Origin: Streptosporangium sp. NBC_01495
GTDB taxonomy: Bacteria > Actinomycetota > Actinomycetes > Streptosporangiales > Streptosporangiaceae
Assembly (NCBI RefSeq): GCF_036250735.1
Contig: NZ_CP109430.1
Span: forward strand, 7,688,001-7,752,000
DNA: 64,000 bases
Direction: 5' to 3'
Shown here: in pieces, positions 6,954 through 59,508 of the stretch
Layout of the letters: each line of letters opens with the position of its first letter
How positions within the stretch are numbered: position 1 is the first letter of the stretch
Position numbers and translations under genes: made by a program
The notes under the pieces: model-generated
Seen by the model: only the letters and a program-made list of their open reading frames with translations
Databases searched by the model: none
Told to the model about the DNA's origin: nothing

Positions 6954-6964
6954 TCAAACTTTGA
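6954..6964 (+). promoter_or_regulatory. TCAAACTTTGA palindrome, ArsR-gene promoter
   Basis: A perfect 11-bp dyad lies 23 bases upstream of the ArsR-family start, placed where it would cover the -10 region. Its size and position fit an autoregulatory ArsR operator; binding is inferred. Confidence 0.45.
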
Positions 6965-6986
6965 TGGAGGTCGTACTATTGGGCCC

Positions 6987-7304
6987 ATGGGACGCACACC
7001 GCCGCATCCAGAGATGTCGCAGTTCGACCTCCAGCAGGTGCTGGAGGCGCTCGTCGATCCGGTACGCCGGAGCATCGTCACGCAGCTCGACATCGCCGGC
7101 GAGGACATCAAGTGCGGCGATTTCGACATATCGGTTAGCAAGTCGACCGCCACCCACCACTTCAAGGTGCTGCGCGCGGCGGGCCTGATCCGGCAGTACT
7201 ACGTCGGGACCTCGCGGATGAACTCCCTCCGCCGCGCCGAGATGGACGAGGCGTTCCCGGGCCTGCTCGACGCCCTCACCACGCGCCCGGCCAGGGTGCG
7301 CTGA
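6987..7304 (+). CDS. ArsR-family winged-helix regulator
   Basis: This 105-residue protein consists of a single winged-helix domain (about residues 15-85). The recognition helix lies in SVSKSTATHHFKVLRAAGLI, and the wing contains YYVGTSRMNSL. The pair of cysteines that would form a classical metal site is absent (only one Cys, in IKCGDF), so it is more likely a metabolite or redox sensor than an arsenic sensor. The SDR gene starts 115 bases downstream on the same strand and is the probable target, together with the gene itself. A short perfect palindrome precedes the start. Confidence 0.85.
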   Translation: MGRTPPHPEMSQFDLQQVLEALVDPVRRSIVTQLDIAGEDIKCGDFDISVSKSTATHHFKVLRAAGLIRQYYVGTSRMNSLRRAEMDEAFPGLLDALTTRPARVR

Positions 7305-7419
7305 CTCCCGCCCCGCCGGAGGACCGGGAGGGGTCGCCGGCCGAGAGGGGCGGCGAACGCGCCCGGCCGGTTCGGGTCGGCGGTGAATCACATCATCGAG
7401 AAGAAAGAAGGACACCGGC

Positions 7420-8256
7420 TTGACGAGGACATTCGTGGTCACAGGTGGCACCGACGGGATCGGCGCGGCCGTCAGCCGGGCGCTGTTCTCCAGGGGAGAC
7501 CATGTCGTGGTGATCGGCAAGAACCCGGAGAAAGGTGATCGGCTCGTCCGGGAGGCGGCCGGAGCGCCGGGAAGCGTGACCTTCGTCCAGGCGGACCTCA
7601 GCCTCATGTCCAGCACCAGGCGTACCGTCGACGAGGTGGTCGAGGCCCATCCGAGAATCGACGGCCTTGTCCTGTGCGCGCGCTACTTCCGGACACACCG
7701 ATCGGTCACCTCCGAGGGATTCGAGGACAACTTCGCGCTCTTCTACCTGAGCCGCGTCCTGTTCGGCTACGGACTGCGAGGCGCTCTCGAGAAGGCGGAC
7801 AGGCCGGTCGTCGTCAACGTGGCGGGTCCGGGCCACGACACACCGATCGATTGGGAGGATCTGCAGGGGGCCAGGCGATACGACGGCGTGAACGCGATGT
7901 TCGTGACCGGACGGTACAACGACCTGCTCGGGGTCACGTTCGCCGAGCGCCACGGCGACGGCCCGGTCAGGTACGTGCTCTTCCATCCGGGAACGACGTC
8001 GACGAGCTTCGCCGGTGAGTTCGACGCCCCGACGGGGGCGTACATCGAACAGCAGAAGGCGCTGGCGAAACCCGCCACCGACGTCGTCCCCCCGATCCTC
8101 CGGCTTCTTGACGATCCTCCCGGGAAACCGCTCAGCGCGTTCAGCATGCACACCGAACTGAGCGTCCGGACCGGCCTGTTCTCCCCCGCGGCGGCGGCCC
8201 GCCTCGCGGACCTCACGGCGGAACTGATGGAGCCCGGCGGTCACACCCCTACTTGA
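7420..8256 (+). CDS. Atypical short-chain dehydrogenase/reductase
   Basis: This 278-residue Rossmann-fold protein has the SDR cofactor loop TGGTDGIG at residues 8-15 and a structural NVAG. At the catalytic site the Tyr is followed by YNDLL instead of Y-x-x-x-K, so the Lys is missing and classical oxidoreductase activity is doubtful. A substrate-binding or regulatory role is possible. The start is TTG at 7420 with AAGAAGGA eight bases upstream. It follows the ArsR gene. Its 3' end overlaps the end of the convergent permease gene by eight bases (8249-8256). Confidence 0.8.
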   Translation: MTRTFVVTGGTDGIGAAVSRALFSRGDHVVVIGKNPEKGDRLVREAAGAPGSVTFVQADLSLMSSTRRTVDEVVEAHPRIDGLVLCARYFRTHRSVTSEGFEDNFALFYLSRVLFGYGLRGALEKADRPVVVNVAGPGHDTPIDWEDLQGARRYDGVNAMFVTGRYNDLLGVTFAERHGDGPVRYVLFHPGTTSTSFAGEFDAPTGAYIEQQKALAKPATDVVPPILRLLDDPPGKPLSAFSMHTELSVRTGLFSPAAAARLADLTAELMEPGGHTPT

Positions 8257-9160
8257 GCGCGCCCGCGGTGAGGCCCTTCTGGATCTGGCTCTGGAAGAGC
8301 GTGTAGACGATCAGCATCGGCAGGATGGCCATGCTCAGCGCGGCGAACAGGGCCGACCAGTCGGCGTCGTAGCCCGCGGCCGTGGAGATGTCGGCGATGC
8401 CCTGGGTGAGCACCCACTTGTCCCGGTCGGAGTTGAGCAGGACGAGGGGCAGCTGGTACTGGTTCCACTGGCCGAGCACGTTGAAGATGGTCACGCTGAC
8501 GATGCCCGGCTTGGCCATCGGCAGCATGATCTGGAAGAACACCCGGGCGTGCGAGGCCCCGTCCACGAAGGCCGCCTCGGCCACCGCTCCCGGCAGCGTC
8601 CTGAAGAAGGCCGCGAGGAAGAAGACGGTGAAGGGCAGCGAGTAGGCGATGTAGACCAGCACCAGCCCGCCGTGCGTGTTCAGGCCGATGAACGGGCCGA
8701 TCACCGGGACCGTCCCCATGTTCTGCACGACGAAGAACAGCGGGGTCAGCGCCAGGTAGACCGGGAAGGCCAGGCCGGAGACGAACAGCAGATAGATCGC
8801 CCGGTTGCCCCGGAAGCGGTAACGGGCCAGCACGTACGCGGCCATCGAGCCGAACAGCATCGTGCCGAAGGTGCCGAAGGCCACCACGACGACGCTGTTG
8901 ATCATGTACTGGCCGATGTGCGCCTGCTCCCAGGCGCGGGCCCAGTTGTCGAGGCGGAGGGAGGCCGGCAGCGACCAGGCGTCGCCGAAGATCTCGTCCT
9001 CGCTCTTCACCGACGCGAGGAACGTCCACACGATCGGCACGACGACCAGGACCGTCCAGACCAGCAGCGCGACGTGCGTCAGGGCCGACAGGGGCCCCAG
9101 GCGCCTCCTGCGCTCCTCGCGGGCGAGGGCCCTGCTCCGGGGAATCACGACGTCCGCCAC
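8249..9160 (-). CDS. Sugar ABC transporter permease (MalG type)
   Basis: This 303-residue inner-membrane permease of the carbohydrate-uptake-1 family has six predicted transmembrane helices and an EAA loop (EAAFVDGASHARVFFQIMLP) that docks the ATPase. Its GTG start overlaps the stop of the upstream permease by one base (TAGTG), giving tight translational coupling. No ATPase gene follows. As in many actinomycetes, a shared MsiK-type ATPase encoded elsewhere probably powers the importer (inference). Confidence 0.92.
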   Translation of the reverse strand: MADVVIPRSRALAREERRRRLGPLSALTHVALLVWTVLVVVPIVWTFLASVKSEDEIFGDAWSLPASLRLDNWARAWEQAHIGQYMINSVVVVAFGTFGTMLFGSMAAYVLARYRFRGNRAIYLLFVSGLAFPVYLALTPLFFVVQNMGTVPVIGPFIGLNTHGGLVLVYIAYSLPFTVFFLAAFFRTLPGAVAEAAFVDGASHARVFFQIMLPMAKPGIVSVTIFNVLGQWNQYQLPLVLLNSDRDKWVLTQGIADISTAAGYDADWSALFAALSMAILPMLIVYTLFQSQIQKGLTAGALK

Positions 9161-10062
9161 TAGAACTCGATCCGCTCACGCCGCGACAGGCGCAGAGCCA
9201 GCGCCGCGAACCCGATGGTGAAGAAGAACAGCACCACGCCCATCGCGGAGGCGTAGCCGAACTTGAAGTATTGGAAGGCAGTGCGGTAGATCTCCGCCGC
9301 CATCACGGTCGTGGAGTGGTCGGGGCCGCCGTGCTCGGCCGTCATCACCCACACGATGGCGAAGACGTCCAGCGCCGCGATGCCGAGATAGACCCAGCCG
9401 ACCTGGATGGTGTCCCACAGCAGCGGCAGCGTGACCCGCAGGAACAGCTGTGGCCCCCCGGCGCCGTCGATCGCCGCCGCCTCGAACAGGTCGCGCGGGA
9501 TGGAGGCGATGCCCGCGGAGAAGAGCACGACGTAGAAGCCGACCGCCTGCCAGACCAGCACCGCGAGGATCGACCAGAACGCGACGTCGGTGTCGGACAG
9601 GAAGCCGACCGGCTCGAACCCCAGGGCGATGAGCGGCGCGTTGAGCATGCCGCTGCGGTCGGGCCTGAAGACCTGCTGGAACAGCACGGCGACCACGGCG
9701 ACGGCCAGCACCTGGGGGAAGAAGAACACCACGCGGTAGAACTTCGACCCCCAGATACCCCCGGTGCCGCCCCGCCCGCCCGCGTTGAGCAGGAAGGCGA
9801 AGAAGAGCGCGATGCCGAGCGTGAGGATCGGCATCAGGACCAGCAGGACGAGGTTGTGGCTGACCGCCTGCCAGAACACGTTGTCGGCCAGGAGCCGCTG
9901 GAAGTTCTCCAGCCCCACGAGGCGCGGGGTCGCGTTCACCCCGCGCCAGTCGGTGAACGCGATGTAGAAGGCCTGCGCGTATGGCGCGATCACGTAGATC
10001 AGGTAGAGCGCCACCGGGATCGCGAGGAAGCTCGCGACGAACCGTGTCCTGCCGTGGTCCAT
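9160..10062 (-). CDS. Sugar ABC transporter permease (MalF type)
   Basis: This 300-residue permease has an N-terminal helix (FLAIPVALYLIYVIAPYAQAF region) and five further membrane segments. The EAA loop is EAAAIDGAGGPQLFLRVTLP. It is the heterodimer partner of the MalG-type permease, with which it overlaps by one base. It lies 156 bases downstream of the binding-protein gene. The start is ATG at 10062. Confidence 0.92.
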   Translation of the reverse strand: MDHGRTRFVASFLAIPVALYLIYVIAPYAQAFYIAFTDWRGVNATPRLVGLENFQRLLADNVFWQAVSHNLVLLVLMPILTLGIALFFAFLLNAGGRGGTGGIWGSKFYRVVFFFPQVLAVAVVAVLFQQVFRPDRSGMLNAPLIALGFEPVGFLSDTDVAFWSILAVLVWQAVGFYVVLFSAGIASIPRDLFEAAAIDGAGGPQLFLRVTLPLLWDTIQVGWVYLGIAALDVFAIVWVMTAEHGGPDHSTTVMAAEIYRTAFQYFKFGYASAMGVVLFFFTIGFAALALRLSRRERIEF

Positions 10063-10218
10063 GGCGGGCTTACCGTTCCCTCTGCGATTCGCCGCCGGCC
10101 GTCGTCGTCCCGCCGTGGCTCATGACCCGGTCACCGTTCCCCGGGCGGCTCGCCGTCCCGTCCCGCCGTGCCTCGTGACCGGCCGACCGTCCCCCGGACG
10201 CCCCACCGCGTGCCGCCG

Positions 10219-11628
10219 TCATCGGCTGAACTTCTTCACCGAGGAGTCCTTCTTGATGGCGTCGGCCTTGCCCTGTGCCCGGTCCGCCCACTGGTCGACG
10301 GTGAGCTTGCCGCTCATGAGCTGCCCGGTCGCGGCGGCCACCTCGTCGTGCAGTTCGACGTACCACTTGCGGAACAGGAACCAGACGGCGTTGTCTCCCG
10401 CCGCGTCCAGCGCGGCCGAGGCGCTCTTCAGGCCGGGCTTGAGCGTACGGCCCTCGTCGGCGCCCCTGACGACCGTGAGCGTGGAGACCAGCTCCATGAA
10501 CTTGCCCGCGCCCTCCTTGGAGAGCATGGCGCGCATGTACTCCATGCCCGCGCGGGGGTTCGCCGACTTCGCCGGGACGACGTACTCCTCGCCCGGCTGG
10601 GCGTGCAGGGTGCCGTACGGGAGGGCGTCGGAGGAGCCGAAGTCGGGGAGCGCGAACATCGCGTAGTCGAAGTCGGCCGGGGTGGAGTCCTTCTGCTCGT
10701 TCTCCAGCCAGGAGCCGCAGGGCAGCATCGCGACCTGGCCCTTGTTGTGCGCGGTCTGGGTCTGCACGTGGTCGAGCCCGGCGGTGCCCTGGAGCAGGTA
10801 CTTCGACCCGAGCTCGACGAAGGCCCCCGCGGCCTGCCTGACCGGCTCGGCCTTCCAGGCGCCGTCCTGGAGGTTGTCGATGTTCTTCAGCACGTCCTTG
10901 CCGCCGATCTTCGCGGCGAGCGTGAGGATGGCCTCGTAGATGTAGTACGGGTGCTTGCCCGCGTAGGTGAAGGGCGCCATTTTGCCCGACTTCTTGATGG
11001 TCTCGCACAGGGCCAGGAAGTCGGCCCAGGTCTTGGGGACCTGCCAGCCCTCGGCCTCGAAGAGCTTGCGCGAGTACCAGATGCCCCAGACGGTGTTGGC
11101 GTAGTTGAGGACGTACGGCTTGCCGTCGTAGCTGCCCAGCTCGATCGCGTTCGGGTCGATCGTGTCGCGCACCTTGACGGCGGGGTCGTCCCAGCTCGGC
11201 GCGTCGTACAGCGGCGTGAGGTCGGCGAGCTGGCCGTCCTGGACCAGGGCGCCGAAGTCCATCGCGTTGGCGCCGGAGTTGTTGACGAACTCCGGCGGGT
11301 CGCCGCCGGCGAAGCGCGGCTGGAGGGTCTTGGCGACCTCCTTGGTGGCGTTGTGTTTGATCTCCAGCTTGGGGTACTTGGCCTTGAGCAGCGGCTCGTG
11401 GACGTTCGTGGCGTAGGCGTCGCCGAAACCGCCGTCGAAGATCCAGACCTCCAGGGGCTTGTTCTCGGCGAAGCCGAGCGGGTTGGCCGCGCTGGTGGCC
11501 CCGACGACGGGTGCCGGGGAGGCGGCGCCGCCGTTGCCCGCGGGGGTGGCGCACGCGGACAGGACCGGCAGGGTGAGGCCGGCCAGGGCCGCGCTGCGCA
11601 GAAGCTCACGCCTGGATAGCTGGGTCAT
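10219..11628 (-). CDS. Extracellular sugar-binding lipoprotein of the ABC importer
   Basis: This 469-residue solute-binding protein (family 1) begins with a twin-arginine-like lipoprotein signal, SRRELLRSAALAGLTLPVLSAC; the lipobox Cys is residue 26. The mature part is a periplasmic-type two-lobe sugar-binding fold, with WADF, an aromatic-rich cleft and a typical C-terminal DQWADRAQ. It captures an unidentified carbohydrate outside the membrane for the two permeases downstream. It lies between the SIS-protein gene and the permeases, so the substrate is probably an amino sugar or similar phosphorylatable sugar (inference). Confidence 0.92.
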   Translation of the reverse strand: MTQLSRRELLRSAALAGLTLPVLSACATPAGNGGAASPAPVVGATSAANPLGFAENKPLEVWIFDGGFGDAYATNVHEPLLKAKYPKLEIKHNATKEVAKTLQPRFAGGDPPEFVNNSGANAMDFGALVQDGQLADLTPLYDAPSWDDPAVKVRDTIDPNAIELGSYDGKPYVLNYANTVWGIWYSRKLFEAEGWQVPKTWADFLALCETIKKSGKMAPFTYAGKHPYYIYEAILTLAAKIGGKDVLKNIDNLQDGAWKAEPVRQAAGAFVELGSKYLLQGTAGLDHVQTQTAHNKGQVAMLPCGSWLENEQKDSTPADFDYAMFALPDFGSSDALPYGTLHAQPGEEYVVPAKSANPRAGMEYMRAMLSKEGAGKFMELVSTLTVVRGADEGRTLKPGLKSASAALDAAGDNAVWFLFRKWYVELHDEVAAATGQLMSGKLTVDQWADRAQGKADAIKKDSSVKKFSR

Positions 11629-11667
11629 GCTTCCTCCTGGAAGTGGCCTGGGAGTGGAAGGCGGTGG

Positions 11668-12426
11668 TCAGGCACCTCGCCGGATCCTTCCGGCGTAGCG
11701 GTTCTCAAGCGTGCGGTTGTGCTCGTCGCCGCCGGTCACGTTGGCGGAGCGGTAGATCGGCGGGGTCAGGCCCGCCTCGGTCAGGCCGCGCACCACCTCG
11801 GCCACGACCATCTGGGCCAGCAGCGCCGACGTGATCGTGGACACCGCCCCGAACGTGCCGCCGTCCTGGAGCGGGAGGACCGCGTCGCCGTACGGGGCGC
11901 GGTTGTCGAGCACCACGTCGGCGAGGTCGAGCAGCTTGCGGCCCGAGGGGTGGCGGGAGGTCATCGCGGTGCTGTGCTGCACCGACGTCAGGGCGATCAG
12001 GTCGTGCCCGTGCTCCTTGACGATCGAGGCCAGCTCGACCACCGACCCGTTCACCCCGGAGCTGGAGATCAGCACGAACACGTCCGGCGGCCGGACGGGA
12101 GCCAGGTCGTAGATCCGCCGGGCGACCGAGGGGTCGCGCTCCAGCTCACCGGGGGCGCCGAGGAGGGTGCCGACCGGGGCGTCCCCGTACAGGACGACGT
12201 CGCGCAGGGCCAGGCGGTTGCTGGGCACCAGGCCGCCCGCGCGCCCGGCGATCTCCATCGCGATCGCCTCGGAGTGCCCGGAGCCGAACGCCTGGATCAC
12301 GCCGCCGCCGCGCAGGGACGCGACGATCAGCGCCGCCGCGGCCCCCACCGCGTCCGTCTGGGTCCTGGAGACCTCGTCCACCAGGGCCTTGACCTCGTGA
12401 ACGTACTCGGAAGCACCGATCTCCAC
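11668..12426 (-). CDS. SIS-domain sugar isomerase-like protein (UPF0309 type)
   Basis: This 252-residue protein contains one SIS phosphosugar-binding domain. The glycine-rich loop AFGSGHSEAIAMEIAGRAGG (about residues 45-64) and the downstream serine cluster LISSSGVNGS (about 113-122) line the sugar-phosphate site. It resembles the UPF0309 group of putative sugar-phosphate isomerases. I chose GTG at 12426 because it begins two bases after the stop of the RpiR gene and has GAGGAG upstream; the open frame extends further but would overlap that gene. It probably processes the sugar brought in by the neighbouring importer, for example by isomerising or deaminating an amino-sugar phosphate. Confidence 0.87.
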   Translation of the reverse strand: MEIGASEYVHEVKALVDEVSRTQTDAVGAAAALIVASLRGGGVIQAFGSGHSEAIAMEIAGRAGGLVPSNRLALRDVVLYGDAPVGTLLGAPGELERDPSVARRIYDLAPVRPPDVFVLISSSGVNGSVVELASIVKEHGHDLIALTSVQHSTAMTSRHPSGRKLLDLADVVLDNRAPYGDAVLPLQDGGTFGAVSTITSALLAQMVVAEVVRGLTEAGLTPPIYRSANVTGGDEHNRTLENRYAGRIRRGA

Positions 12427-12428
12427 GG

Positions 12429-13313
12429 TCAGCTCCTCTCCACGCGATGGCTCTCCAGAGCCCGGATCGTCAGCTCGAAGGCCTCGTTGGTCTGCTCGTA
12501 GGTGCGCTGCGCGACCGCGACGTAGACCGTGTCGAGGACGAAGAGCTGGGAGTGGACGGCGGCCAGGCCGCCGAGCCTGAAGGTGGTCTCGCGGCTCGCG
12601 GTGGTCAGCACCAGGTCGGCCAGCTCGGCCAGCGGGGAGCGGGCGAAGGAGGTGACCGCGACGGTCAGCGCGCCCCGGTCCCCGGCCTCGCCGAGGGACT
12701 CCAGCACCTCGCGGGTACGGCCCTGGTGGGAGATGCCGATCGCGACGTCGCCCTCGCCGAGCAGCGCGGCGTCGGCGAGCGCCTCGTGCGCGTCGGCGTG
12801 GCTCCAGCAGGGGACCCGGATGCGGCGCAGCCGCCCGCCCATCATCACGGCCACCGCCCCGCTGGTGGAGACCCCGAAGATGAGGACGCGGCGGGCCTCG
12901 ACGATGGCCTCGGCGACCGTGGCGACCGTGCCCGCGTCCAGTTGGGCCGCGGTCTCCTGGATGAGCCGGGAGTCGGCGGCGGCCATCACGCCGATCGCCG
13001 CGTCGAGCGGGTCGGTGGGGCCGATCTCGTGGCCCACCCCCGCGTCCCAGTTGGCCTGCGCGGCACGCCCGTTCTCCGTGGCCAGCGCGACCCGCAGCCC
13101 GGCGTACCCGGCGAAGCCGAACACCCGGCAGAAGCGGGTCACCGTGGCGGGCGAGCTGCCGCTCCGCTCGGCCAGCGTGATGATCGTGGATCGCGCCGCC
13201 TCGGCCGGGTCGGCCAGGATCGCCTCCCCCACCCGGCGCAGCGCCTCGGGCAGCGTGGGTGTCTCGGTCTGTATGCGTCCGAGTGCACCTGCGGCCACAA
13301 GCATTCCTTTCAC
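12429..13313 (-). CDS. MurR/RpiR-family transcriptional regulator
   Basis: This 294-residue regulator has an N-terminal RpiR helix-turn-helix (about residues 20-95, TIITLAERSGSSPATVTRFCRVFGFAGYAGL) and a C-terminal SIS domain (about 130-265, VLIFGVSTSGAVAV and ISHQGRTREV) that senses a sugar phosphate. It leads an operon with the SIS protein and the ABC importer. A TGAAA/TTCTCA dyad lies 16-30 bases upstream of its start. It is likely a repressor relieved by the phosphorylated substrate. Confidence 0.92.
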   Translation of the reverse strand: MKGMLVAAGALGRIQTETPTLPEALRRVGEAILADPAEAARSTIITLAERSGSSPATVTRFCRVFGFAGYAGLRVALATENGRAAQANWDAGVGHEIGPTDPLDAAIGVMAAADSRLIQETAAQLDAGTVATVAEAIVEARRVLIFGVSTSGAVAVMMGGRLRRIRVPCWSHADAHEALADAALLGEGDVAIGISHQGRTREVLESLGEAGDRGALTVAVTSFARSPLAELADLVLTTASRETTFRLGGLAAVHSQLFVLDTVYVAVAQRTYEQTNEAFELTIRALESHRVERS

Positions 13314-23670: not shown

Positions 23671-25056
<1,386 letters not shown>

Positions 25057-50847: not shown

Positions 50848-51525
50848 TCAGTCGCTGAAGCCGTCTGCCGCGTTCAGCAGAACGTGGGTCGTACGGGTGA
50901 TGTGGGCCCGGAGCCTCTCCGCTCCCGTGTCGGCGTCACGGGCGAGAGCCGCCTCCGTCAACCGGCGGTGCTCGCCGGCGATGTCCCGCTCCCGGTCCTT
51001 GCCGATCGGGCGTGACCAGCGGCGGTAGAGTTCCGCGCCGTCACGGAGGGACATGGCGAGATCACGCAACCGGCGGCTGCCGCAGGCGTCGAACAGGGTC
51101 ACGTGGAAGTGCGAGTGCGCCTTCGCCCACTCCTCGCTGAAGAGCTCGGGATCACCGTCCACCGTCATGGGCGTGTTCTCCAGCGTGTGGTGCGCCGCGA
51201 TGACACGGCTCTCCCAGGCCAGGTCACCGCGCTCGATGGAGTAGCGGAAGGCCATGCATTCGATGTCGCACCGCACGGCGGTGAGGTCCTCAAGGTCTTC
51301 CGGTGAGAGAGGGATCACCCGGAATCCCTGTCTCGGCGCCTCCACCACGAGCTTCTCCGCGCTGAGCTTCGCCAGCACCTCACGGAGAACGCTGATGCTG
51401 GTTCCATAGCGCTCCGAGAGCGCGGCGAACTTGAGCCGATCCCCCGGGCGCAGCCGCCCGGCGAGGATGTCGGCTCGCATCCGGTCATACGCGACTCCGT
51501 TGAGCGTGTTGGCCCCTTGCTTCAT
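50848..51525 (-). CDS. GntR-family regulator, FadR/FCD subfamily
   Basis: This 225-residue protein has a winged helix at residues 10-75 (LKFAALSERYGTSISVLREVLAKLSAEKLVVEAPRQGFRV) and an all-helical FCD ligand domain with the metal-binding Asp and His residues (about 85-220, including HSHFHVTLFDACGS and GEHRRLTEAAL). Such regulators respond to carboxylic-acid intermediates. It is divergent from the catabolic/import cluster that begins at 51700, and a 24-bp dyad lies in the gap, so it is the likely repressor of the cluster and of itself. Confidence 0.92.
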   Translation of the reverse strand: MKQGANTLNGVAYDRMRADILAGRLRPGDRLKFAALSERYGTSISVLREVLAKLSAEKLVVEAPRQGFRVIPLSPEDLEDLTAVRCDIECMAFRYSIERGDLAWESRVIAAHHTLENTPMTVDGDPELFSEEWAKAHSHFHVTLFDACGSRRLRDLAMSLRDGAELYRRWSRPIGKDRERDIAGEHRRLTEAALARDADTGAERLRAHITRTTHVLLNAADGFSD

Positions 51526-51547
51526 GCCTTATGGCTATCAGATCGCC

Positions 51548-51571
51548 GAATCAAAAGCAAATTTTCGATTC
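51548..51571. promoter_or_regulatory. Candidate GntR operator
   Basis: The arms GAATCAAAAG (51548-51557) and TTTTCGATTC (51562-51571) pair at 8 of 10 positions around CAAA. It is the most AT-rich point of the divergent gap and lies 23 bases upstream of the GntR start, well placed to control both directions. Confidence 0.5.
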
Positions 51572-51699
51572 TTTATTGACTTGTCGAACTTAGAGCTGCG
51601 ACGGTGTTACAGCAAAGTTAACGCACCACCTGAAGCCCCGACCGGCTGCAGGTCACGCGGTGGCAGCCATGCGCAGGCAGGCAGAAAGAACAGTGCCGC

Positions 51700-51999
51700 A
51701 TGATCACCCACCTAGCCGTTTTCCGATGGAAGAACGACGTGGACCCGGCCCAGATCGCCGGCCTCCGCGAGGCGCTCGCCGAGCTGCCCGACCTCATCCC
51801 CGCACTGGTGACCTACCGGTTCGGCGAGGATCTGGGGCTGCGCGAGGGCAACGGCGACTTCGGCGTCATGGCCGTCGTCGCGGACGAGGCGGATGTCTCG
51901 GGGTATCTCGATCACCCCGCGCATCTCAGGGTCGTCGAGAAGTTCACCAGGGTGATGGCCGCACAGCGGATCACCGTCCAGTTCTCCGTAAAGGACTGA
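51700..51999 (+). CDS. Dabb (stress-responsive A/B-barrel) protein
   Basis: This 99-residue ferredoxin-like dimeric barrel protein reads LAVFRWKNDVDPAQIAGLREALAELPDLIPALVTYRFGEDLGL and ends FTRVMAAQRITVQF, a pattern typical of Dabb proteins. Members include small lyases/cyclases such as olivetolic acid cyclase and many of unknown function. As the first gene of the cluster it might act on a reactive keto intermediate. The start is ATG at 51700. Confidence 0.87.
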   Translation: MITHLAVFRWKNDVDPAQIAGLREALAELPDLIPALVTYRFGEDLGLREGNGDFGVMAVVADEADVSGYLDHPAHLRVVEKFTRVMAAQRITVQFSVKD

Positions 52000-52054
52000 C
52001 GCGCCGGCGTCCCCGCCGCGTTTCCACCAACCTCATGAGGAAGGCATTCCTGTC

Positions 52055-52993
52055 ATGCGGATCATCAGCCATACCGAGAACGGCCGGACACAAGGCGGTG
52101 TCGCGCTCGGTGAGCATGTCGTCGAGCTCGGCGCGGCGGTCGCGCACGCCGGTTTCGCGATCCCCGACGGCGAGCCGCTGTCCGTCCGGGTCTTCCTCGG
52201 CCGTGACTACGACCGAGACGCGGTGCTGGCGGCGGCGGCCCAGCTCGTCGAGCGGGGCCGTGCCCGCCCGCTGAGCGAGCTGCGTCTCGCGCCGCCCGTA
52301 CCCGACCCCGACAAGATCCTCTGCATCGGGCTCAACTACCGCGACCACGCGAAGGAGGCGGGACTCGCCCTGCCGAGCGAGCCGATGGTCTTCGCCAAGT
52401 TCAGGAACTGCCTGATCGGGGCCGAGGACGAGATCGTGCTGCACGACGAGAGCGAGCGGGTCGACTACGAGGCCGAGCTCGCCGTAGTGATCGGGCGCAG
52501 GGGCAGGGCGATCACCGAGGAGCGTGCCCTCGACCACATCGCCGGCGTCACGGTTTTCAACGACGTCACCGCCAGGAACCTGCAGCTCGCCACCAGCCAG
52601 TGGACGCTGGGCAAGTCCGTCGACACGTTCGGCCCCTGCGGTCCGTATCTGGTCACCCTCGACGAGATCCCGGACCTGTCCGACCTGCGGCTGCGCACCC
52701 TGGTCAACGGCAGGACCGTGCAGGACGGCTCGACCTCGCAGATGGTGTTCACCGTCCCCCAGCTCGTCGCCTATGTCAGCCAGGCGATGACGCTCGAACC
52801 CGGCGACATCATCGCCACCGGAACTCCCGCGGGCGTCGGATTCAAGCGGACGCCCCCGATCCTGCTGCGTCACGGCGATCTGGTGGAGGTCGAGATCGAC
52901 TCGATCGGACGGCTGTCCAACCGCGTCGTCAGCGCCGTCCGGGCCGGATCGGATCCCTCCCGTGAATCCGCCGTAGGGGCGGGTTCACGCTGA
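52055..52993 (+). CDS. Fumarylacetoacetate hydrolase-family enzyme
   Basis: This 312-residue FAH-superfamily protein has an N-terminal cap (1-75) and a catalytic core with KILCIGLNYRDHAKEAG and metal ligands in DYEAELAVVIG (Glu-x-Glu) and FNDVTARNLQ (Asp), plus TGTPAGVGF. Such enzymes hydrolyse acylpyruvates or decarboxylate/hydrate oxo-acids from meta-cleavage of aromatics. With the extradiol-type dioxygenase two genes downstream, it would act after ring opening. ATG at 52055 follows GAGGAAGG. Confidence 0.92.
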   Translation: MRIISHTENGRTQGGVALGEHVVELGAAVAHAGFAIPDGEPLSVRVFLGRDYDRDAVLAAAAQLVERGRARPLSELRLAPPVPDPDKILCIGLNYRDHAKEAGLALPSEPMVFAKFRNCLIGAEDEIVLHDESERVDYEAELAVVIGRRGRAITEERALDHIAGVTVFNDVTARNLQLATSQWTLGKSVDTFGPCGPYLVTLDEIPDLSDLRLRTLVNGRTVQDGSTSQMVFTVPQLVAYVSQAMTLEPGDIIATGTPAGVGFKRTPPILLRHGDLVEVEIDSIGRLSNRVVSAVRAGSDPSRESAVGAGSR

Positions 52994-53030
52994 GCGGGCA
53001 GGTTCGTGCCGAGCGGCCGAGAAGCGGGGA

Positions 53031-53060
53031 ACCCGGTGAAACCCGGTGAAACCCGGTGGA
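53031..53060. repeat. Three tandem 10-bp repeats
   Basis: ACCCGGTGAA occurs at 53031-53040 and 53041-53050, and ACCCGGTGGA at 53051-53060, in the 226-base gap between the FAH and SDR genes. That gap otherwise shows no gene; near its end lies an AT-rich AAAACGTTAAT that may be a secondary promoter. Confidence 0.8.
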
Positions 53061-53219
53061 CCTCGGTGTCACGGCCGTACGGCGCACCTGCTCATCCCTG
53101 TCGAACCCGCTGAACCCGAGGCCGGCCACGCGCCGGTCTCCAAGACCCGGCCGGACCACTGAGGGCCCCGGCCGAGGGCGAAAACGTTAATCCGCACCAC
53201 CATTTAGGACCGGTATGTG

Positions 53220-54008
53220 ATGGACCTTCAACTTCGCGGCAAGACCGCGTTCGTGACCGGCGGCGCACAGGGCATCGGCCTCGCGATCGCCGATCGGCTC
53301 CACGGCGAGGGCGTGCGCCTGGCCGTCGCGGACATCGACCATGAGCAGCTGCTCAAGCATGAGGACCGGTGGACCGTCGACGGCCGCCCTCCGGCACTGA
53401 TCGAGGCCGACCTGTCGAGCGCCGAGGGTGTCGCCCGTGCGATCGACGCCACACTGGGGGCGTTCTCCGGGCCGCCGGACATCGTGGTCAACAACGTCGG
53501 GGTGGCGCTGTCCCGGGCCTTCGCCGACATCGACGACGCGGGATGGCAGCGCACGTTCGACCTCAACTTCATGAGTTACGTGCGGGTCACCCGGGCACTG
53601 ATGCCCAGGATGAAGTCGGGGGCGGTCGTCAACATCGCCTCGGACCTGGCCAAGCAGCCCGAGGTCGTGCCGGCGGACTACGGGGCGATGAAGGCGGCGG
53701 TGCTCCACCTGACCAAGGTGCTCGCCCTGGAGTTCGCGCCCGCCGTGCGGACGAACGCGGTGCTGCCGGGGCCGGTGTGGACCGGCCTGTGGTCCAGGCC
53801 CGGTGGACTGGTGGACATGCTGGCGGCGGACTACGGCACCGACCGGGACACCGCGCTGGCCCGCTATCTCGCCGACCGGCAGCTCACGTTCGGCATCGCC
53901 GACCCCGACGACGTGGCGAGCATGGTCGCCTATCTCGTCTCACCGCTGGCCCGACGGGTCAACGGCTCGGCCTTCGACATCGGCGGAACCGTACGTTCCC
54001 TGATCTGA
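53220..54008 (+). CDS. Short-chain dehydrogenase/reductase
   Basis: This 262-residue classical SDR has cofactor loop TGGAQGIG (about residues 13-20), NNVG (about 88-91), a catalytic Ser in VVNIASDLA and Tyr/Lys in ADYGAMKAAV (Y-x-x-x-K). ATG at 53220 is preferred over the GTG three bases upstream; AGGAC precedes it. In the cluster it may oxidise a diol or alcohol to the ring-cleavage substrate, like a cis-dihydrodiol dehydrogenase (inference). Confidence 0.92.
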   Translation: MDLQLRGKTAFVTGGAQGIGLAIADRLHGEGVRLAVADIDHEQLLKHEDRWTVDGRPPALIEADLSSAEGVARAIDATLGAFSGPPDIVVNNVGVALSRAFADIDDAGWQRTFDLNFMSYVRVTRALMPRMKSGAVVNIASDLAKQPEVVPADYGAMKAAVLHLTKVLALEFAPAVRTNAVLPGPVWTGLWSRPGGLVDMLAADYGTDRDTALARYLADRQLTFGIADPDDVASMVAYLVSPLARRVNGSAFDIGGTVRSLI

Positions 54009-54020
54009 GAGGCGGTCGTC

Positions 54021-54944
54021 ATGGCCTTGCACGCCTTGCAATCCCTGACCATCGGCGTCCCCGACCCTGTCCGTACCGCGGCCTTCTACGCCGAGTTCGG
54101 CCTCGGCTCGGGCACCGGACACGTCTTCGCCACCGCCGACGCCGGTGAGCAGCTCAGGATCCAACATTCGCCGTACCGGCGGCTGCTGGAGATGGTGATC
54201 GCCGCCGACGATCCCGATGACCTGGAGCGCGTCCGGCGATCGCTGGACGCGCGGGGGGTGGTGGCACGTCTTCTCGGCTCGTCCTTGTACTGCGTCGAAC
54301 CCGTCACGGGGACACGGGTCGAGGTGCGGGTCCTGCCCCGGCTCGTTCAGCGGAGGATTTCGCCGACCGCCTACAACGGTCCCGGCCGGGTGGAACGTGT
54401 GAACGAGCGCGCCGCCGTGGTGAACCGCGCCGGACCGGTGGTCCCCCGCAGGCTCGGCCACTGCGTGATCGGCACCCCGGAGCCCGAGGCCCTCCGGCGC
54501 TTCTTCGTCGAAGGCCTCGGGTTCAAGGTCAGCGACGAGGTCAAGGACGCCGCGGTGTTCCTGCGCTGCTCCGTCGACCACCACAACCTGCTCATCCATC
54601 AGGCGCCGGTGAACTTCCTGCATCACACCTCATGGCAGGTCGACGACGCCGACGAGGTCGGACGTGGCGCGATGCGGATGCTGGAGGCCGATCCCAGCCG
54701 TCACATCTGGGGGTTCGGCAGGCACTGCATCGGTGCGAACTTCTTCTGGTACCTGCGCGATCCGGCGGGCAACTTCGCCGAGTACTACAGCGACATGGAC
54801 ACCATCGTCGACGACGCGCTGTGGTCTCCCCAGGTCTGGGAGGGACACAAGGGGCTCTATCTGTGGGGACCGCCGCCACCGCCCTCTTTCCTCCACCCGG
54901 AGGATCTGGCCGGCCTGATGGTCGGCGCGCACGGTTCCACGTGA
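54021..54944 (+). CDS. Two-domain VOC protein, extradiol-dioxygenase type
   Basis: This 307-residue type I extradiol ring-cleavage dioxygenase has two vicinal-oxygen-chelate domains. The second holds a complete iron triad: His147 (LGHCVIG), His202 (FLHHTSWQVDD) and Glu254 (GNFAEYYSDMD), followed by the C-terminal WEGHKGLYLWGPPPPPSF. The usual second-shell His/Tyr candidates are also present (HIWGFGRHCIG). It is thus likely an active dioxygenase opening a catechol ring. It follows the SDR by 12 bases. Confidence 0.88.
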   Translation: MALHALQSLTIGVPDPVRTAAFYAEFGLGSGTGHVFATADAGEQLRIQHSPYRRLLEMVIAADDPDDLERVRRSLDARGVVARLLGSSLYCVEPVTGTRVEVRVLPRLVQRRISPTAYNGPGRVERVNERAAVVNRAGPVVPRRLGHCVIGTPEPEALRRFFVEGLGFKVSDEVKDAAVFLRCSVDHHNLLIHQAPVNFLHHTSWQVDDADEVGRGAMRMLEADPSRHIWGFGRHCIGANFFWYLRDPAGNFAEYYSDMDTIVDDALWSPQVWEGHKGLYLWGPPPPPSFLHPEDLAGLMVGAHGST

Positions 54945-54996
54945 CATTCCCGCGTCGGCCCGTGTCACCAAGGAACACCTTCGAAAGGAGAAAGAG

Positions 54997-55443
54997 ATGT
55001 CCAGCGTCATCGTAGGCGACACCCGGTCACCCGGTCGTGTGCTCGGCGTGCACGGCGGAGCCGGGGGCATGCACTGGTTGCGGATCGCCACCGGTTCCCA
55101 CCTCTACGGGGAGTGGGACGGCTTCGAGTGGGTGGGATTCGAGCCAGGGGCCAGCGCGGGACGCCACGTTCACAGCCACACGGAGGAGATCTGGTTCTTC
55201 CTCCGCGGTACGGGCGTGGTGGAACTCGACGGCGTCAAGCACGACGTCGGCCCCGGCTCGCTCGTGCTGACCCCGCACCACAGCAGCCACTCGGTGCGCA
55301 ACACCGGCGAGGAGCGGTTGGAGTTCGTGGTCATCGAGGTCTTCCCGCCCGCGATCAGCGGTGCCCTGCCGCCGCGACGACCGACCGAGGAACCGGACCA
55401 GATCCTGCTCGGTGAGGACACGACCAGGAAGGCAGGTGTGTGA
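54997..55443 (+). CDS. Cupin with intact metal site
   Basis: This 148-residue single-domain cupin has motif 1 GRHVHSHTEEIWFFLRGTG (two His and Glu) and motif 2 PHHSSHSVRNTG (His), so it can bind a metal. It might be a small isomerase or dioxygenase or a sugar-binding cupin. Its stop overlaps the start of the next cupin by one base (TGATG). RBS AAAGGAGAAAG precedes the ATG at 54997. Confidence 0.87.
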   Translation: MSSVIVGDTRSPGRVLGVHGGAGGMHWLRIATGSHLYGEWDGFEWVGFEPGASAGRHVHSHTEEIWFFLRGTGVVELDGVKHDVGPGSLVLTPHHSSHSVRNTGEERLEFVVIEVFPPAISGALPPRRPTEEPDQILLGEDTTRKAGV

Positions 55444-55751
55444 TGGCTGGTTTCGTCACGGTGCTCCAGACAGGGGACACGCTCTCGGCCGCCGGCCACT
55501 TCGCCGGTCCCTGGAGGGACTTCCGACGCGTTCGGATCGAGCCGGGCGCGTCCGAGACCGTGGTCGGCGACACGGTTGAGGCCGCGATCTTCGTGATGTC
55601 CGGCGCCGTCTCGGTACGCGTCGGCGACACCGACACACCGGTCGAGGAAGGCGGCGCGCTGGCCGTCGGGCTGGGCAGCCGGGTGGACCTGGTGGCCCGT
55701 GAGAACGGCGCGGAACTGTTCATCACCACACTCAACGTCGACCTCGGATAA
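55443..55751 (+). CDS. Cupin lacking metal ligands
   Basis: This 102-residue cupin-fold protein (RIEPGASETVVGDTVEAAIFVMSGAVSVRVGDTD...GGALAVGLGSRVDLVARE) has none of the metal-binding His residues. It may be a non-catalytic partner of the preceding cupin, with which it is translationally coupled by a one-base overlap, forming a heterodimer (inference). Confidence 0.8.
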   Translation: MAGFVTVLQTGDTLSAAGHFAGPWRDFRRVRIEPGASETVVGDTVEAAIFVMSGAVSVRVGDTDTPVEEGGALAVGLGSRVDLVARENGAELFITTLNVDLG

Positions 55752-55896
55752 CGGACCGGGCCCGGTTGACGAGACGAGCCGCCGTTTACGGGGAGCGGCG
55801 GTCGCGGAGGGTCCACCGTCGAGCGCGGCGGCTGGTCCGCCGCGCCACCGGCTCCCTCCGCCAAATACCCATCACCGTCCTCGCTTGGAGTAGGAC

Positions 55897-56970
55897 ATGC
55901 GCAACACCCCCCAATTTCCCACATCCCGTACGCCTCATATCGCCGCCGCGTTGCTCCTCGCCGGAGCACTGACGGGATGCGGCCTCACCTCCTCCGCCTC
56001 CACCGGCAAGGGCGCCGCCCAGGCGGGTGACGCCGTCGGCCCGATCGGCTACAGCGCGCTGTTCCTGCAGGATCCCGCCCAGTCCGCCATGGTGCGGATC
56101 TTTCAGGACGAGGCGAAACAGCGCGGGTTGAAAGCGCTCTCTCCCACCTCGGCCAACGGCGACGCGGCCAAGCAGGACTCCGACCTGCGCAACCTGGTCA
56201 ACGCGGGCGCCAAGAGCCTGTTCGTGATCCCGGCCGACCCCAAGGCCGTCGTGCCGTCCATCAAATACGCGATGGACCGAGGGGTCCGCGTGGTGACGCT
56301 CATGCAGGGCCCGTCCGGGGGGAGGACGACCATCAGCATGCAGGTCGACAACAAGCAGATCGGCGAGCAGGCGTGCCGCTTCCTCGCCGAGAAGGTCGGC
56401 GAGCGTGGCACGGTCCTTCAGCTCGAGGGCGACATGCGCTCGACGACCGCGCAGGAGCGTGAAGCCGGCTTCGACGCCTGCATGAAACGGGATCACCCCG
56501 GCATCACCGTGATCACGAAATCCGGAGGTCAGTGGGACCCGGTGAAGGCCGCGCAGTCGGCGGCCGGGGCGATGAGCACCGATCCGGAGATCCGCGGAAT
56601 CTTCATGCACACCGACGGCTACGTCCCAAGCATCCACCCGGTGCTCCAGCGCGCCGGGGCGGCGAAAGGCCGGGCCGACGCCGATCACGTATGGACGGTG
56701 AGCGTGGACGGCACACCGGCGGCGATCGACGCGATCCGCGCCGATCGGCTCGACGCCAGCATCAGCCAGCCCATCACCGCCTTCGTCTCCCGAGGCCTCG
56801 AACACCTCCAGGCACTGGCCGGCGGCGAGGAGATCCCGTCCGGTCCGACGGACTACGGGAGCACGGTCGCGCCCACCGGCGACGGGTACCCCGCCGACAC
56901 CTATCTGCCCCTGCTCGTGGACAGTCGCAACGTCGACGACCCCGCGCTGTGGGCCAACCGGAGAAGCTGA
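55897..56970 (+). CDS. Ribose-type substrate-binding lipoprotein
   Basis: This 357-residue solute-binding protein of the RbsB/periplasmic-binding-protein-4 class has lipobox LTGC (Cys28) after a hydrophobic helix, then two Rossmann-like lobes (LFVIPADPKAVVPSIKYAMDRGVRVVTL, MQVDNKQIGEQACRFLAEKVGERGTVLQLEGD). It is first of a complete importer. Ribose-type importers also carry aromatic glycosides, autoinducers and polyols, so the ligand could be a glycosylated aromatic (inference). Confidence 0.92.
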   Translation: MRNTPQFPTSRTPHIAAALLLAGALTGCGLTSSASTGKGAAQAGDAVGPIGYSALFLQDPAQSAMVRIFQDEAKQRGLKALSPTSANGDAAKQDSDLRNLVNAGAKSLFVIPADPKAVVPSIKYAMDRGVRVVTLMQGPSGGRTTISMQVDNKQIGEQACRFLAEKVGERGTVLQLEGDMRSTTAQEREAGFDACMKRDHPGITVITKSGGQWDPVKAAQSAAGAMSTDPEIRGIFMHTDGYVPSIHPVLQRAGAAKGRADADHVWTVSVDGTPAAIDAIRADRLDASISQPITAFVSRGLEHLQALAGGEEIPSGPTDYGSTVAPTGDGYPADTYLPLLVDSRNVDDPALWANRRS

Positions 56971-56975
56971 CCGCG

Positions 56976-58502
56976 ATGACAGCCGAAACGCGACGGCAGC
57001 CACCCGGCGGCACGCGGGGTCACCAGGTCGCCGAGTTGAGAACCATCACCAAGCGGTTCGGCGCGACGCTCGCCCTCGACGGAGTCGACCTCACCGTCCA
57101 CGCGGGACGGACTCACGGGCTCATCGGGAGAAACGGGGCGGGCAAGTCCACCGTGGTGGGAGTGCTCACCGGCCTGCACCACCCGGACAGCGGTGTGCTG
57201 ACCTTCGGCGGCCGGCCCGCGCCGTTCGACGCGCCCCGGCGGTGGCGCAGGCACGTCGCCTGCGTCTACCAGCACCCGATGCTGATCCCGAACCTGTCGG
57301 TGGCCGAGAACCTGCTGCTCGACAGGCTTCCCCGGAATCGACTGGGAATCGACTGGCGGCGCACCCGGCTCCAGGCCGCGCAGATCCTTGAGGAGTGGGA
57401 CCTGCGCGTCGCGCCGACCGCGCGCGCCGGGGACCTCGACGTCGAGCAGGCCCAGCTCCTGGAGATCGCCAAGGCGCTGTCCCACGGCAGCGACCTGATC
57501 GTGCTCGACGAACCCACGGCCAGGCTCGACTCCGGAGCCGCGGCCCGGCTGTTCGCCACCGTCCGGCGGCTGCAGGGCGCCGGTGCCACGTTCTTGTTGA
57601 TCTCGCATTACCTGCACGAGGTCTTCGACGTGTGCGACGAGGTGACCGTGCTCCGCGACGGCCGCCGCGTCGGTACACACTCCACCGCCGAGGTCACCGC
57701 GTCCGACCTCGTCGAGCAGATGGTCGGCGATGTCCCGCCACCACCGGCGACGGCGTCCGCGATGGTTTCCGGGCGGCCGCGTCTGACGGTCTCGGGGTTC
57801 TCCGGGGCACGGTTCCACGATCTCGACCTGACCGCGTCCGCCGGGGAGATCGTGGGGCTCGCCGGGCTGGTCGGCTCGGGCCGCTCGCAGGTCGGCGAGG
57901 CCCTGGGCGGGCTGGGTGAGGCCTCGGGGCGGGTGCTCCTCGACGGCGAACAGGTGCCCCTCGGGCGGGTCGACGCGGCGCTCGCCACCGGGATCGCGCT
58001 GATCCCGCGCGACCGGCACCAGGCGGGCATGGTCGCGGGGATGCGGGTGGACGACAACCTCACCCTCGCCGACGAGTGCCTGTCCACAGGCAGGCTCGGC
58101 GTGGTCAGCGCACGTCGCCGACGGCACCTCGCCGACTCGCTCATCGCCGAACTCGACGTCCGGCCCGCGCGCCGCGACGTGCCCGTCGGCGCACTCAGCG
58201 GCGGCAACCAGCAGAAGGTCGTCTTCGGGCGCGCGCTGGCGACGCGTCCGCGGGTGCTGATCGCGGTCGAGCCGACCGCCGGTGTCGACATCGCCAGCAA
58301 GACCACCCTGCTCAACGTGCTCAACCAGGCCTCGGCCGAGGGCACCACCGTGATCGTCTGCTCCGACGACCTTGACGACCTGCGCATCTGCCACCGCGTA
58401 CTGGTCATGCGCGCCGGGCGTCTCGCGACAGAACTGAACGCGGGCTGGAGCGACCGGCAGCTCGTCGGCGCGATCGAAGGGACCAACGATGTCGAAGACT
58501 GA
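56976..58502 (+). CDS. Ribose-type ABC transporter ATPase (two nucleotide-binding domains)
   Basis: This 508-residue RbsA-like protein has a first domain with Walker A GRNGAGKST and DEPTARLDSGAAARL, and a second domain with a degenerate P-loop GLVGSGRSQ and signature LSGGNQQK. The first domain lacks a classical LSGGQ (VEQAQLLEIAKAL), as usual in this family. ATG at 56976 is five bases after the binding-protein stop. Its end overlaps the permease start by 14 bases. Confidence 0.93.
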   Translation: MTAETRRQPPGGTRGHQVAELRTITKRFGATLALDGVDLTVHAGRTHGLIGRNGAGKSTVVGVLTGLHHPDSGVLTFGGRPAPFDAPRRWRRHVACVYQHPMLIPNLSVAENLLLDRLPRNRLGIDWRRTRLQAAQILEEWDLRVAPTARAGDLDVEQAQLLEIAKALSHGSDLIVLDEPTARLDSGAAARLFATVRRLQGAGATFLLISHYLHEVFDVCDEVTVLRDGRRVGTHSTAEVTASDLVEQMVGDVPPPPATASAMVSGRPRLTVSGFSGARFHDLDLTASAGEIVGLAGLVGSGRSQVGEALGGLGEASGRVLLDGEQVPLGRVDAALATGIALIPRDRHQAGMVAGMRVDDNLTLADECLSTGRLGVVSARRRRHLADSLIAELDVRPARRDVPVGALSGGNQQKVVFGRALATRPRVLIAVEPTAGVDIASKTTLLNVLNQASAEGTTVIVCSDDLDDLRICHRVLVMRAGRLATELNAGWSDRQLVGAIEGTNDVED

Positions 58503-59508
58503 GACGATGCCCGCGCCCGAGGGGCTGCGGCGCCGCCCGGGAGAGGGCCGTGGAAGGGCGCTCTCCGTTCAACTCGGCATGATTCCGGCGGTGGTGATCG
58601 CACTCGCCATCGGCTTCCTTGTCAATGACGCCTTCCTCACCCCCGGCAACCTGGTCAACGTGCTGCAGCAGAGCTCGGAGCTGGCGATCCTGGTGGTCGC
58701 GGAGACTCTCATCCTGCTGACCGGGAGATTCGACCTCTCCCTGGAATCGGTCGTCGCCTTCGCCCCGATGCTCGCCGTCTGGCTGGTCCTGCCCGCCGCG
58801 GTGGGCGGGGTGGGCGTGCTGCCCGCGACGGTCGGCCTGGTCGTCCTGTTCGCGGTAGGGGCGCTGACCGGGCTGTTCAACGGCCTCATGGTCACCCGGC
58901 TGCGGCTGAACGCCTTCATCGTGACCCTCGCCATGCTCATCCTGCTGCGCGGCGCGACCCTGGGCGTCGCGAACGGCCGTACCCTGGCCGACCTGCCCGC
59001 TCCGTTCACCTATCTCGGCAGCACGGCCTTCCTCGGCCTGCCTTTCACGGTATGGATCGCGGCCGCGTTGTTCGCGGGCGTTCACTGGTTCCTCCGCCAC
59101 CACCGGCACGGGCGGGCGCTGTACGCCGTCGGCGGTAACTCGACCGCCGCGCGGGCCGCGGGGATCCGCGTTCCATCGGCGATTCTCGCGGTCTATGTCG
59201 TCGGTGGTCTGCTGGCCGCCCTCGCGGGCCTGCTCCTGGCCGGACGGCTCGCCGCGGTGACGGCAGGTCAGGGCCAGAATATGATCTTCTCGGTGTTCGC
59301 GGCGGCGGTCATCGGCGGCATCGGCCTCAACGGGGGCAAGGGGTCGATTCTCGGCGCGCTCACCGGCGTGTTGCTGCTGGGGATCATCTCGAACATCCTG
59401 ACGCTGTCCCAGATCTCGACCTTCTGGATCGATGCCGCCAACGGCGCGATCATCCTCGGTGCGCTGCTCATCCAGCGGGCGACCGGGGAGACGGGCGAAG
59501 AACCCTGA
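58489..59508 (+). CDS. Ribose-type ABC transporter permease
   Basis: This 339-residue RbsC-family permease (BPD_transp_2) has about ten hydrophobic segments and the family motif AVGGNSTAARAAGI (about 215-228) preceding NGGKGSILGALTGVLLLG. It completes the importer encoded by the two genes before it. ATG at 58489 overlaps the ATPase gene. The cluster ends here; the convergent kinase gene ends 118 bases further on. Confidence 0.93.
   Translation: MSKTETMPAPEGLRRRPGEGRGRALSVQLGMIPAVVIALAIGFLVNDAFLTPGNLVNVLQQSSELAILVVAETLILLTGRFDLSLESVVAFAPMLAVWLVLPAAVGGVGVLPATVGLVVLFAVGALTGLFNGLMVTRLRLNAFIVTLAMLILLRGATLGVANGRTLADLPAPFTYLGSTAFLGLPFTVWIAAALFAGVHWFLRHHRHGRALYAVGGNSTAARAAGIRVPSAILAVYVVGGLLAALAGLLLAGRLAAVTAGQGQNMIFSVFAAAVIGGIGLNGGKGSILGALTGVLLLGIISNILTLSQISTFWIDAANGAIILGALLIQRATGETGEEP

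Follow-up and report, generated by a model that had tools for sequence, protein, structure and literature searches.

A ten-gene island at positions 50848–59508 of a 64,000-nucleotide stretch of the Streptosporangium sp. NBC_01495 genome (the window; contig NZ_CP109430.1, host genome size 11.1 Mb) may be a hybrid catabolic operon or operon pair through which a cyclitol-like polyol is imported, aromatized and ring-cleaved. We assign this reading, drawn from sequence comparison and predicted structures, a probability of roughly 40%. A single regulator gene faces the other nine, which encode a dimeric alpha/beta barrel (Dabb) protein, a hydrolase of the FAH superfamily, a short-chain dehydrogenase/reductase (SDR), a type I extradiol dioxygenase of the vicinal oxygen chelate (VOC) kind, two cupins (CupA and CupB) and three components of a CUT2-type importer. 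An earlier note on this DNA had described this gene set as facing a FadR-type repressor; all ten genes were found in place and their Pfam families agree.

From the genes, their residues, predicted folds, homology and neighborhoods, we infer a substrate, an order of steps, products and a mode of regulation. The importer, encoded by three observed genes, would take up a cyclitol-like polyol, and the SDR, judged by its clade, would oxidize one ring hydroxyl to a ketone. CupA and CupB would eliminate water beside this ketone, once or repeatedly, to give a polyhydroxybenzene; for example, loss of two waters from a ketocyclitol (C6H10O6) would give tetrahydroxybenzene (C6H6O4), and the deoxy form would give C6H6O3. 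Acid dehydration of inosose (ketoinositol) to tetrahydroxybenzene is known chemistry according to a passage in PMC11467972. Opening of the polyhydroxybenzene next to a vicinal diol by the dioxygenase is strongly suggested by its residues, fold and neighbors. Hydrolysis of the dioxo acid so formed, by the FAH protein, would yield pyruvate and a short acid, and the GntR/FCD protein would probably repress the operon until an intermediate appears. Because a cyclitol already bears hydroxyls, no ring hydroxylase would be needed. We advance only tentatively, with the odds somewhat against it, the broader proposition of an aerobic cyclitol catabolism via an aromatic, in which a cupin/SDR module shared with cyclitol-forming clusters is joined to a phenol meta-cleavage module, with differing importers, in at least two genera.

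A split bicupin shared with cyclitol-forming clusters

CupA (54997–55443, plus strand) and CupB (55440–55751, plus strand) are the N- and C-terminal halves of bicupins that are otherwise mostly fused, at 234–276 aa. The Pfam model Cupin_2 matched CupA clearly and CupB weakly, under the curated cut-off; CupB, which lacks the HxH metal motif, was aligned by hhalign to the C-halves of fused bicupins with a probability of 99.0 and an E value of 2.7e-18 over 97 columns. CupA is of the metal type, with ligands H57, H59, E63 and H98 (HxH, E, H) invariant in 16/16 rows. Foldseek comparison of its AlphaFold2 model (predicted local distance difference test (pLDDT), 80) returned TM1287, the lyase DddK, TM1459 and KdgF. 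The predicted fold would suit a lyase or an isomerase without being specific for either, and we propose a dehydratase or lyase role.

Close relatives of CupA were rare, occurring in at least 4 of 341 family genomes, at least 6 of 394 genomes of a class sample and at least 2 of 396 of a phylum sample; these samples overlap, and each count includes the window's own genome. All counts from the genome searches with CupA, bicupin and SDR are lower bounds, as about 8–11 candidates were scored per genome. A bicupin profile search in one other family located at least 24 places in at least 20 of 297 genomes, two of these places (G866 and G876; G and L numbers denote genomes and loci) being left out of the flank comparison. 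A sugar-phosphate cyclase was present in 23 of 25 bicupin neighborhoods, within 48 bp of the bicupin in 20 of the 23, and in 19 of 21 once the four profile-seeding loci were omitted (E-limit 1e-8). At the stricter limit used for background loci (1e-12), 0/37 loci fetched around dioxygenase homologs contained one. The cyclases near bicupins were of two kinds, a valiolone-synthase (EEVS) type and a deoxyinosose-synthase (DOIS) type. The cyclase of L104 had 4p53 as its nearest solved relative (483 bits, EEVS-like), which we take to be ValA, an EEVS, and that of L075 was nearest to 2-deoxy-scyllo-inosose synthase 2d2x (257 bits), followed by dehydroquinate synthase (136 bits). In plasmid records, the best matches to CupA (about 55 bits) and to the bicupin (61 bits) were too weak to count as good relatives.

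The bicupin is thus an enzyme shared with such clusters, and the window island is not itself a cyclitol biosynthetic cluster. C7/C6 cyclitol clusters (EEVS/DOIS), among them those for cetoniacytone, BE-40644 and the aminoglycoside type, resemble the island in having a bicupin (there beside the cyclase) and, in some cases, an SDR of the same clade. The island differs in carrying an importer and a ring-cleavage pair, with neither a sugar-phosphate cyclase nor an aminotransferase detected by Pfam among its ten genes, and therefore looks catabolic. The host genome has one match to EEVS, outside the island; as it is just 33% identical, the host probably does not make such cyclitols.

Three loci (L075, L110 and L121) have a DOIS-like cyclase, a bicupin and an SDR adjacent to one another, apparently as a small cluster group. 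Another cyclase–cupin link was seen in L067, where a sugar-phosphate cyclase is fused to a C-terminal cupin domain (3049–4602). In L104 (genome G923), an EEVS-type cyclitol cluster (6505–13269) comprises the bicupin, a VOC epimerase-like protein, a GMC oxidoreductase and, four genes on, a 58% identical dioxygenase homolog; this biosynthetic cluster may include a ring-cleavage step.

The SDR and the FAH hydrolase

A tree was built of 27 SDRs taken from the fetched loci; as in the dioxygenase tree, the bootstrap had not settled. In it, the window SDR (53217–54008, plus strand; Pfam PF13561/PF00106, 144 bits) fell in a clade of seven (100/100) with those of L075, L110 and L121 (DOIS-type clusters), L067 (EEVS-type), L124 and L125. 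On this membership we base its proposed role as a ketocyclitol-forming dehydrogenase. Matches at E 1e-50 were found in at least 3 of 296 class-sample genomes, namely the host's own, G508 and G578 (the last two being the source of L124/L125).

The FAH protein (52055–52993, plus strand; FAA_hydrolase PF01557, 257 bits) is likely a C–C hydrolase of the acylpyruvase type. It is 73% identical to the FAH of L050, a locus in another genus of the same family, and the two form their own clade (99/99) outside the 25-row clade (97/85) that holds most dioxygenase-linked FAHs; the second FAH of L044 likewise lies outside the main clade. The tree ruled out that the window FAH belongs to the common dioxygenase module, and the island, lacking that module's FAH, therefore suggests a ring-fission product different from that of the ordinary module. 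The joint difference of FAH and front end was counted in favor of the cyclitol route. The best NCBIfam model, 2,4-didehydro-3-deoxy-L-rhamnonate hydrolase, scored 230 bits, under its cut-off of 500. Upstream, the Dabb protein (51700–51999, plus strand; PF07876, 56 bits) has 3bgu as its best solved relative, followed by olivetolic acid cyclase.

The dioxygenase and its usual setting

The dioxygenase (54021–54944, plus strand; Glyoxalase PF00903) was aligned with its relatives in 38 rows, which include the window's own protein and two fragments. The 2-His-1-carboxylate triad that the earlier note had recognized, H147, H202 and E254, was invariant in 38/38 rows, as were the second-shell residues H187, H235 and Y244 and also H188 and H201. 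In an alignment to homoprotocatechuate 2,3-dioxygenase, the motifs fell on metal and catalytic positions, with H187 paired to a His. The AlphaFold2 model (mean pLDDT 73), a prediction that the note had proposed, has a type I extradiol fold: top Foldseek matches were extradiol dioxygenases with two VOC modules, the best being 3b59, LapB, RHA1 2,3-dihydroxybiphenyl dioxygenase and BphC, with query TM-scores of 0.61–0.70 among the 50 matches listed. Model pLDDT fell below 50 at residues 115–135, 231–239 (with H235) and 261–307. The protein scored under every curated NCBIfam equivalog cut-off (catechol 2,3-dioxygenase, 66.5/320 bits; HpaD, 61/321; BphC, 40/366; HsaC, 32/450) and therefore, by sequence, is placed in a separate subfamily of type I (VOC) extradiol enzymes. 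An exclusive dioxygenase clade for cupin-bearing islands was not found in the tree.

A genome scan with the dioxygenase returned 31 loci, all actinobacterial by title; close relatives (56–64% identity) made up 30 of these. Neighbors were counted within five genes in 36 neighborhoods, including those of the window and L050 and corresponding to the 38 alignment rows less the two fragments; in L019 and L028 a complete dioxygenase gene was missed by a simple gene caller, which showed none in L054, a distant relative. An FAH gene was nearby in 28/36 and a ring hydroxylase in 20/36, comprising two FAD_binding_3 types (8 and 6) and an Acyl-CoA_dh_2 type (6). Proteins of the last type were taken for two-component monooxygenases, with a flavin reductase nearby in five of the six. 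These counts bear out the expectation of meta cleavage followed by hydrolysis. Less frequent neighbors were an acetoacetate-CoA ligase (4/36) and an Amidohydro_2 protein (4/36). The ligases of L053 and L017 exceeded the curated cut-off (737 and 715 versus 521 bits), as did the hydroxylase of L053 (433 versus 390). Among seven annotated plasmid regions, hand-picked from 25 listed rows, four carried an acetoacetate-CoA ligase and four an annotated monooxygenase or hydroxylase, and a fifth had an acyl-CoA-dehydrogenase-family protein with a flavin reductase.

With its hydroxylase, extradiol dioxygenase and FAH and, in some loci, activation of acetoacetate, the ordinary actinobacterial module would fit an orcinol-like route, which would run from trihydroxytoluene through trioxoheptanoate to pyruvate and acetoacetate. 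The part of PMC8571283 that deals with the orcinol/methylhydroquinone pathway gives 2,3,5-trihydroxytoluene and 2,4,6-trioxoheptanoate as its intermediates. The island shares with that pathway the extradiol cleavage of a polyhydroxybenzene and hydrolysis of a dioxo or trioxo acid, and its regulator and dioxygenase belong to this widespread meta-cleavage module. It differs in that the window dioxygenase has, at a distance of up to five genes, neither a ring hydroxylase of the three types sought nor an acetoacetate-CoA ligase, and in having an FAH of another clade together with the SDR, the split bicupin and the CUT2 importer. Oxidation to a catechol within the island, as earlier supposed, accordingly finds no enzyme of these types there; within the same distance, the L050 dioxygenase also has no ring hydroxylase.

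These neighborhoods bear on the alternative of ordinary phenol catabolism, in which a free di- or trihydroxybenzene (or its acid) would be imported and meta-cleaved while the SDR, Dabb protein and cupins process side chains or ring-fission products. Many dioxygenase loci are indeed of the ordinary aromatic kind, carrying hydroxylases and in some cases an acetoacetate-CoA ligase, and L053, from the window's genus, couples a CUT2 ATPase and permease to hydroxylase, FAH and dioxygenase. The nearest relatives of the window SDR and cupins, by contrast, lie in cyclitol clusters or cupin/CUT2 loci, SDR and cupins recur with CUT2 components with no dioxygenase in view, and the window FAH is of another clade. 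We consider this explanation clearly unlikely.

The regulator (50848–51525, minus strand; GntR PF00392, 55 bits; FCD PF07729, 72 bits) is an FCD-type member of the FadR group. Regulators with near full-length matches of >150 bits in dioxygenase loci were 44–54% identical to it, with weaker or no matches elsewhere; this GntR type was near the dioxygenase in 14/36 neighborhoods and a second FCD type in 6/36. The divergent intergenic region (51526–51699) is the presumed operator/promoter. Of 15 regions next to related regulators, 8 contained a palindrome, TTTCGAAA, and another, AACTTTCGAAAGTT, was common to three divergent regions upstream of GntR homologs (L038, L043 and L031). Regulators of this group may have such palindromes as their operator, as is weakly indicated by a comparison with no shuffle control. 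For a shared operator that includes the window the case was likewise only weak, as its divergent region has no TTTCGAAA and only imperfect versions (TTTTCGATTC and GTCGAAC).

A CUT2 importer and the nature of the substrate

The importer has the CUT2 make-up, with a Peripla_BP_4 binding lipoprotein (55897–56970, plus strand; 142 bits), an ATPase in which ABC_tran matched two stretches, indicating two ABC domains (56976–58502, plus strand), and a BPD_transp_2 permease (58489–59508, plus strand; 116 bits). The ATPase start at about 56976 was read from the sequence; the long open reading frame (ORF) starts at 56532. Of the earlier designation as a ribose-type importer, the CUT2 type stood and assignment to RbsBAC did not: scores were under the curated NCBIfam cut-offs for RbsB (83/337 bits), RbsA (355/745) and RbsC (175/398), and AraG, RbsA and YtfR models gave 352–358 bits on the ATPase, also below their cut-offs. 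By these profiles the importer is CUT2-type rather than RbsBAC. The nearest solved relatives of the binding protein are ribose-type and sugar-binding.

This last observation also suits the main rival explanation, that a phenol bound to a sugar or polyol is released oxidatively, in which an imported glycoside would be oxidized by the SDR to a keto-glycoside, the cupins would eliminate the phenol, and dioxygenase and FAH would degrade it. The same ketone-plus-elimination chemistry works on a glycoside, the CupA fold resembles lyase cupins such as the dimethylsulfoniopropionate lyase DddK, and a ring hydroxylase would be unnecessary if the aglycone were already a catechol; one cyclase cluster also contains a pyranose-oxidase-like GMC protein (438 bits versus a cut-off of 545). 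Set against this, the bicupin's neighbors are cyclitol-forming cyclases, in whose clusters a glycoside is not required, and Pfam found no glycoside hydrolase among the ten island genes, though the route would need none. We regard glycoside release as somewhat unlikely. The substrate class named in the earlier note, a glycosylated or polyol-linked aromatic, hence keeps a place despite the missing hydrolase; a free cyclitol turned into an aromatic is at least as likely, because the cupins are a split bicupin with relatives in cyclitol-forming clusters and the SDR has relatives there.

Pfam coverage of the window comprised 20 genes, the ten of the island and ten others, among which the sole glycosidase, a point that bears on glycoside release, was of family GH1 (23671–25056, 553 bits). 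This gene lies about 26 kb upstream of the island, too far to claim as a partner, and was dropped as one.

Recurrence in other loci

Near-complete recurrence was found once. L050 (G018) has, in order, a LacI regulator, binding protein, permease, ATPase, permease, FAH, SDR, dioxygenase, CupA, CupB and GntR genes, with CupA 76% and CupB 50% identical to the window's. The importer parts are only 27–36% identical, which ruled out orthology of the two importers; similar gene sets have therefore been joined to different CUT2 importers. Otherwise, in this synteny search suggested by the earlier note, the two halves of the island recurred separately. L132 (G1268, same phylum) has a LacI-type regulator, CupA (41%), CupB, an SDR and a CUT2 ATPase and permease on an 11.9-kb contig with no dioxygenase in view.

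The gaps of 223 bp between the FAH and SDR genes and 145 bp between cupB and the binding-protein gene imply that more than one transcript is possible. They also favor the idea of two unrelated adjoining operons, one for meta cleavage and one for sugar or cyclitol import, since the transcripts may differ. The dioxygenase gene, however, sits between the SDR and cupA genes, and L050, in another genus, keeps FAH, SDR, dioxygenase, cupA and cupB together beside a different CUT2 importer; two unrelated operons are in our view highly improbable. Scans for promoters and terminators gave about as many hits as chance would (1 versus 0.3 expected and 2 versus 2.4 expected, respectively), and a short tandem repeat of gaaacccggt units occupies 53030–53060 within the FAH–SDR gap.

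Several observations weigh against the proposed cyclitol route. L104 is a single case of a cyclase cluster with a dioxygenase homolog. L053 joins its CUT2 genes to an ordinary hydroxylase, dioxygenase and FAH, and therefore CUT2 alone does not imply a polyol. CupA shares only 32–46% identity with bicupin N-halves, the value varying with the measure; the bicupin loci L113 and L115 lack a cyclase, L117 has only a weak cyclase match (74 bits), and L074, whose cupA-like gene was not called as an ORF, has separate bicupin halves. Cyclase loci contributed 12 SDRs to the tree, of which only four group with the window's and eight lie elsewhere; over the whole SDR tree, the cyclase-locus label was not clustered beyond shuffles (82/500 as low). 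The SDRs of L050 and L132 are of other subfamilies (29–30% to the window's), the window and L050 dioxygenases are not sisters, and the L051 FAH, which adjoins its dioxygenase, also lies outside the main FAH clade.

L124, L125 and L132 look catabolic, all three carrying M24 proteins, cupins and SDRs, with CUT2 parts in L124 and L132. The M24 protein of L132 is DddP-like (114/600 bits) and 85% identical to that of L124. In L124, a dehydrogenase was best matched by scyllo-inosose 3-dehydrogenase (184/450 bits) and a TIM barrel by QuiC (63/1200); this locus also carries a FolD homolog.

Relation to known pathways

In quinate/shikimate catabolism an imported alicyclic polyol is oxidized, dehydrated (3-dehydroshikimate to protocatechuate) and ring-cleaved. 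The proposed cyclitol route follows the same logic with other enzyme families, a cupin performing the dehydration; no dehydroshikimate dehydratase model was among the NCBIfam matches listed for the island proteins. Inositol catabolism via inosose (iol genes) has CUT2-type import and oxidation to a ketone, both of which the island would share, whereas its ring opening would be oxidative and occur at the aromatic stage. No iol-type model was among the matches listed for the island proteins (up to 25 each for the SDR and the ATPase), a genome-wide iol search not having been made.

Among the titles and abstract openings listed by searches of the open-access literature, we found no paper joining cupins, cyclitols and extradiol cleavage. 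The parts come from known families; neither their combination nor a connection of it with cyclitol clusters turned up in these searches, and the island would exceed a variant of a known system only if aromatization by the bicupin is shown. If the cyclitol route is true, it would connect the metabolism of inositols, quercitols and aminocyclitol antibiotics with aromatic meta cleavage, fields studied apart, and would give the bicupin family, near a cyclase in 23/25 loci, a function that includes a testable aromatization step. It would be a modular catabolic route in which the hydroxyls of the substrate stand in for ring hydroxylation and, if confirmed by experiment, an unusual way of breaking down ring-shaped polyols. 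Soil actinomycetes could then eat cyclitols, possibly those of antibiotic-producing neighbors.

Elsewhere in the window, a second sugar importer region (8249–13232) contains two BPD_transp_1 permeases, an SBP_bac_1 binding protein, a SIS-domain protein and an RpiR-type regulator.

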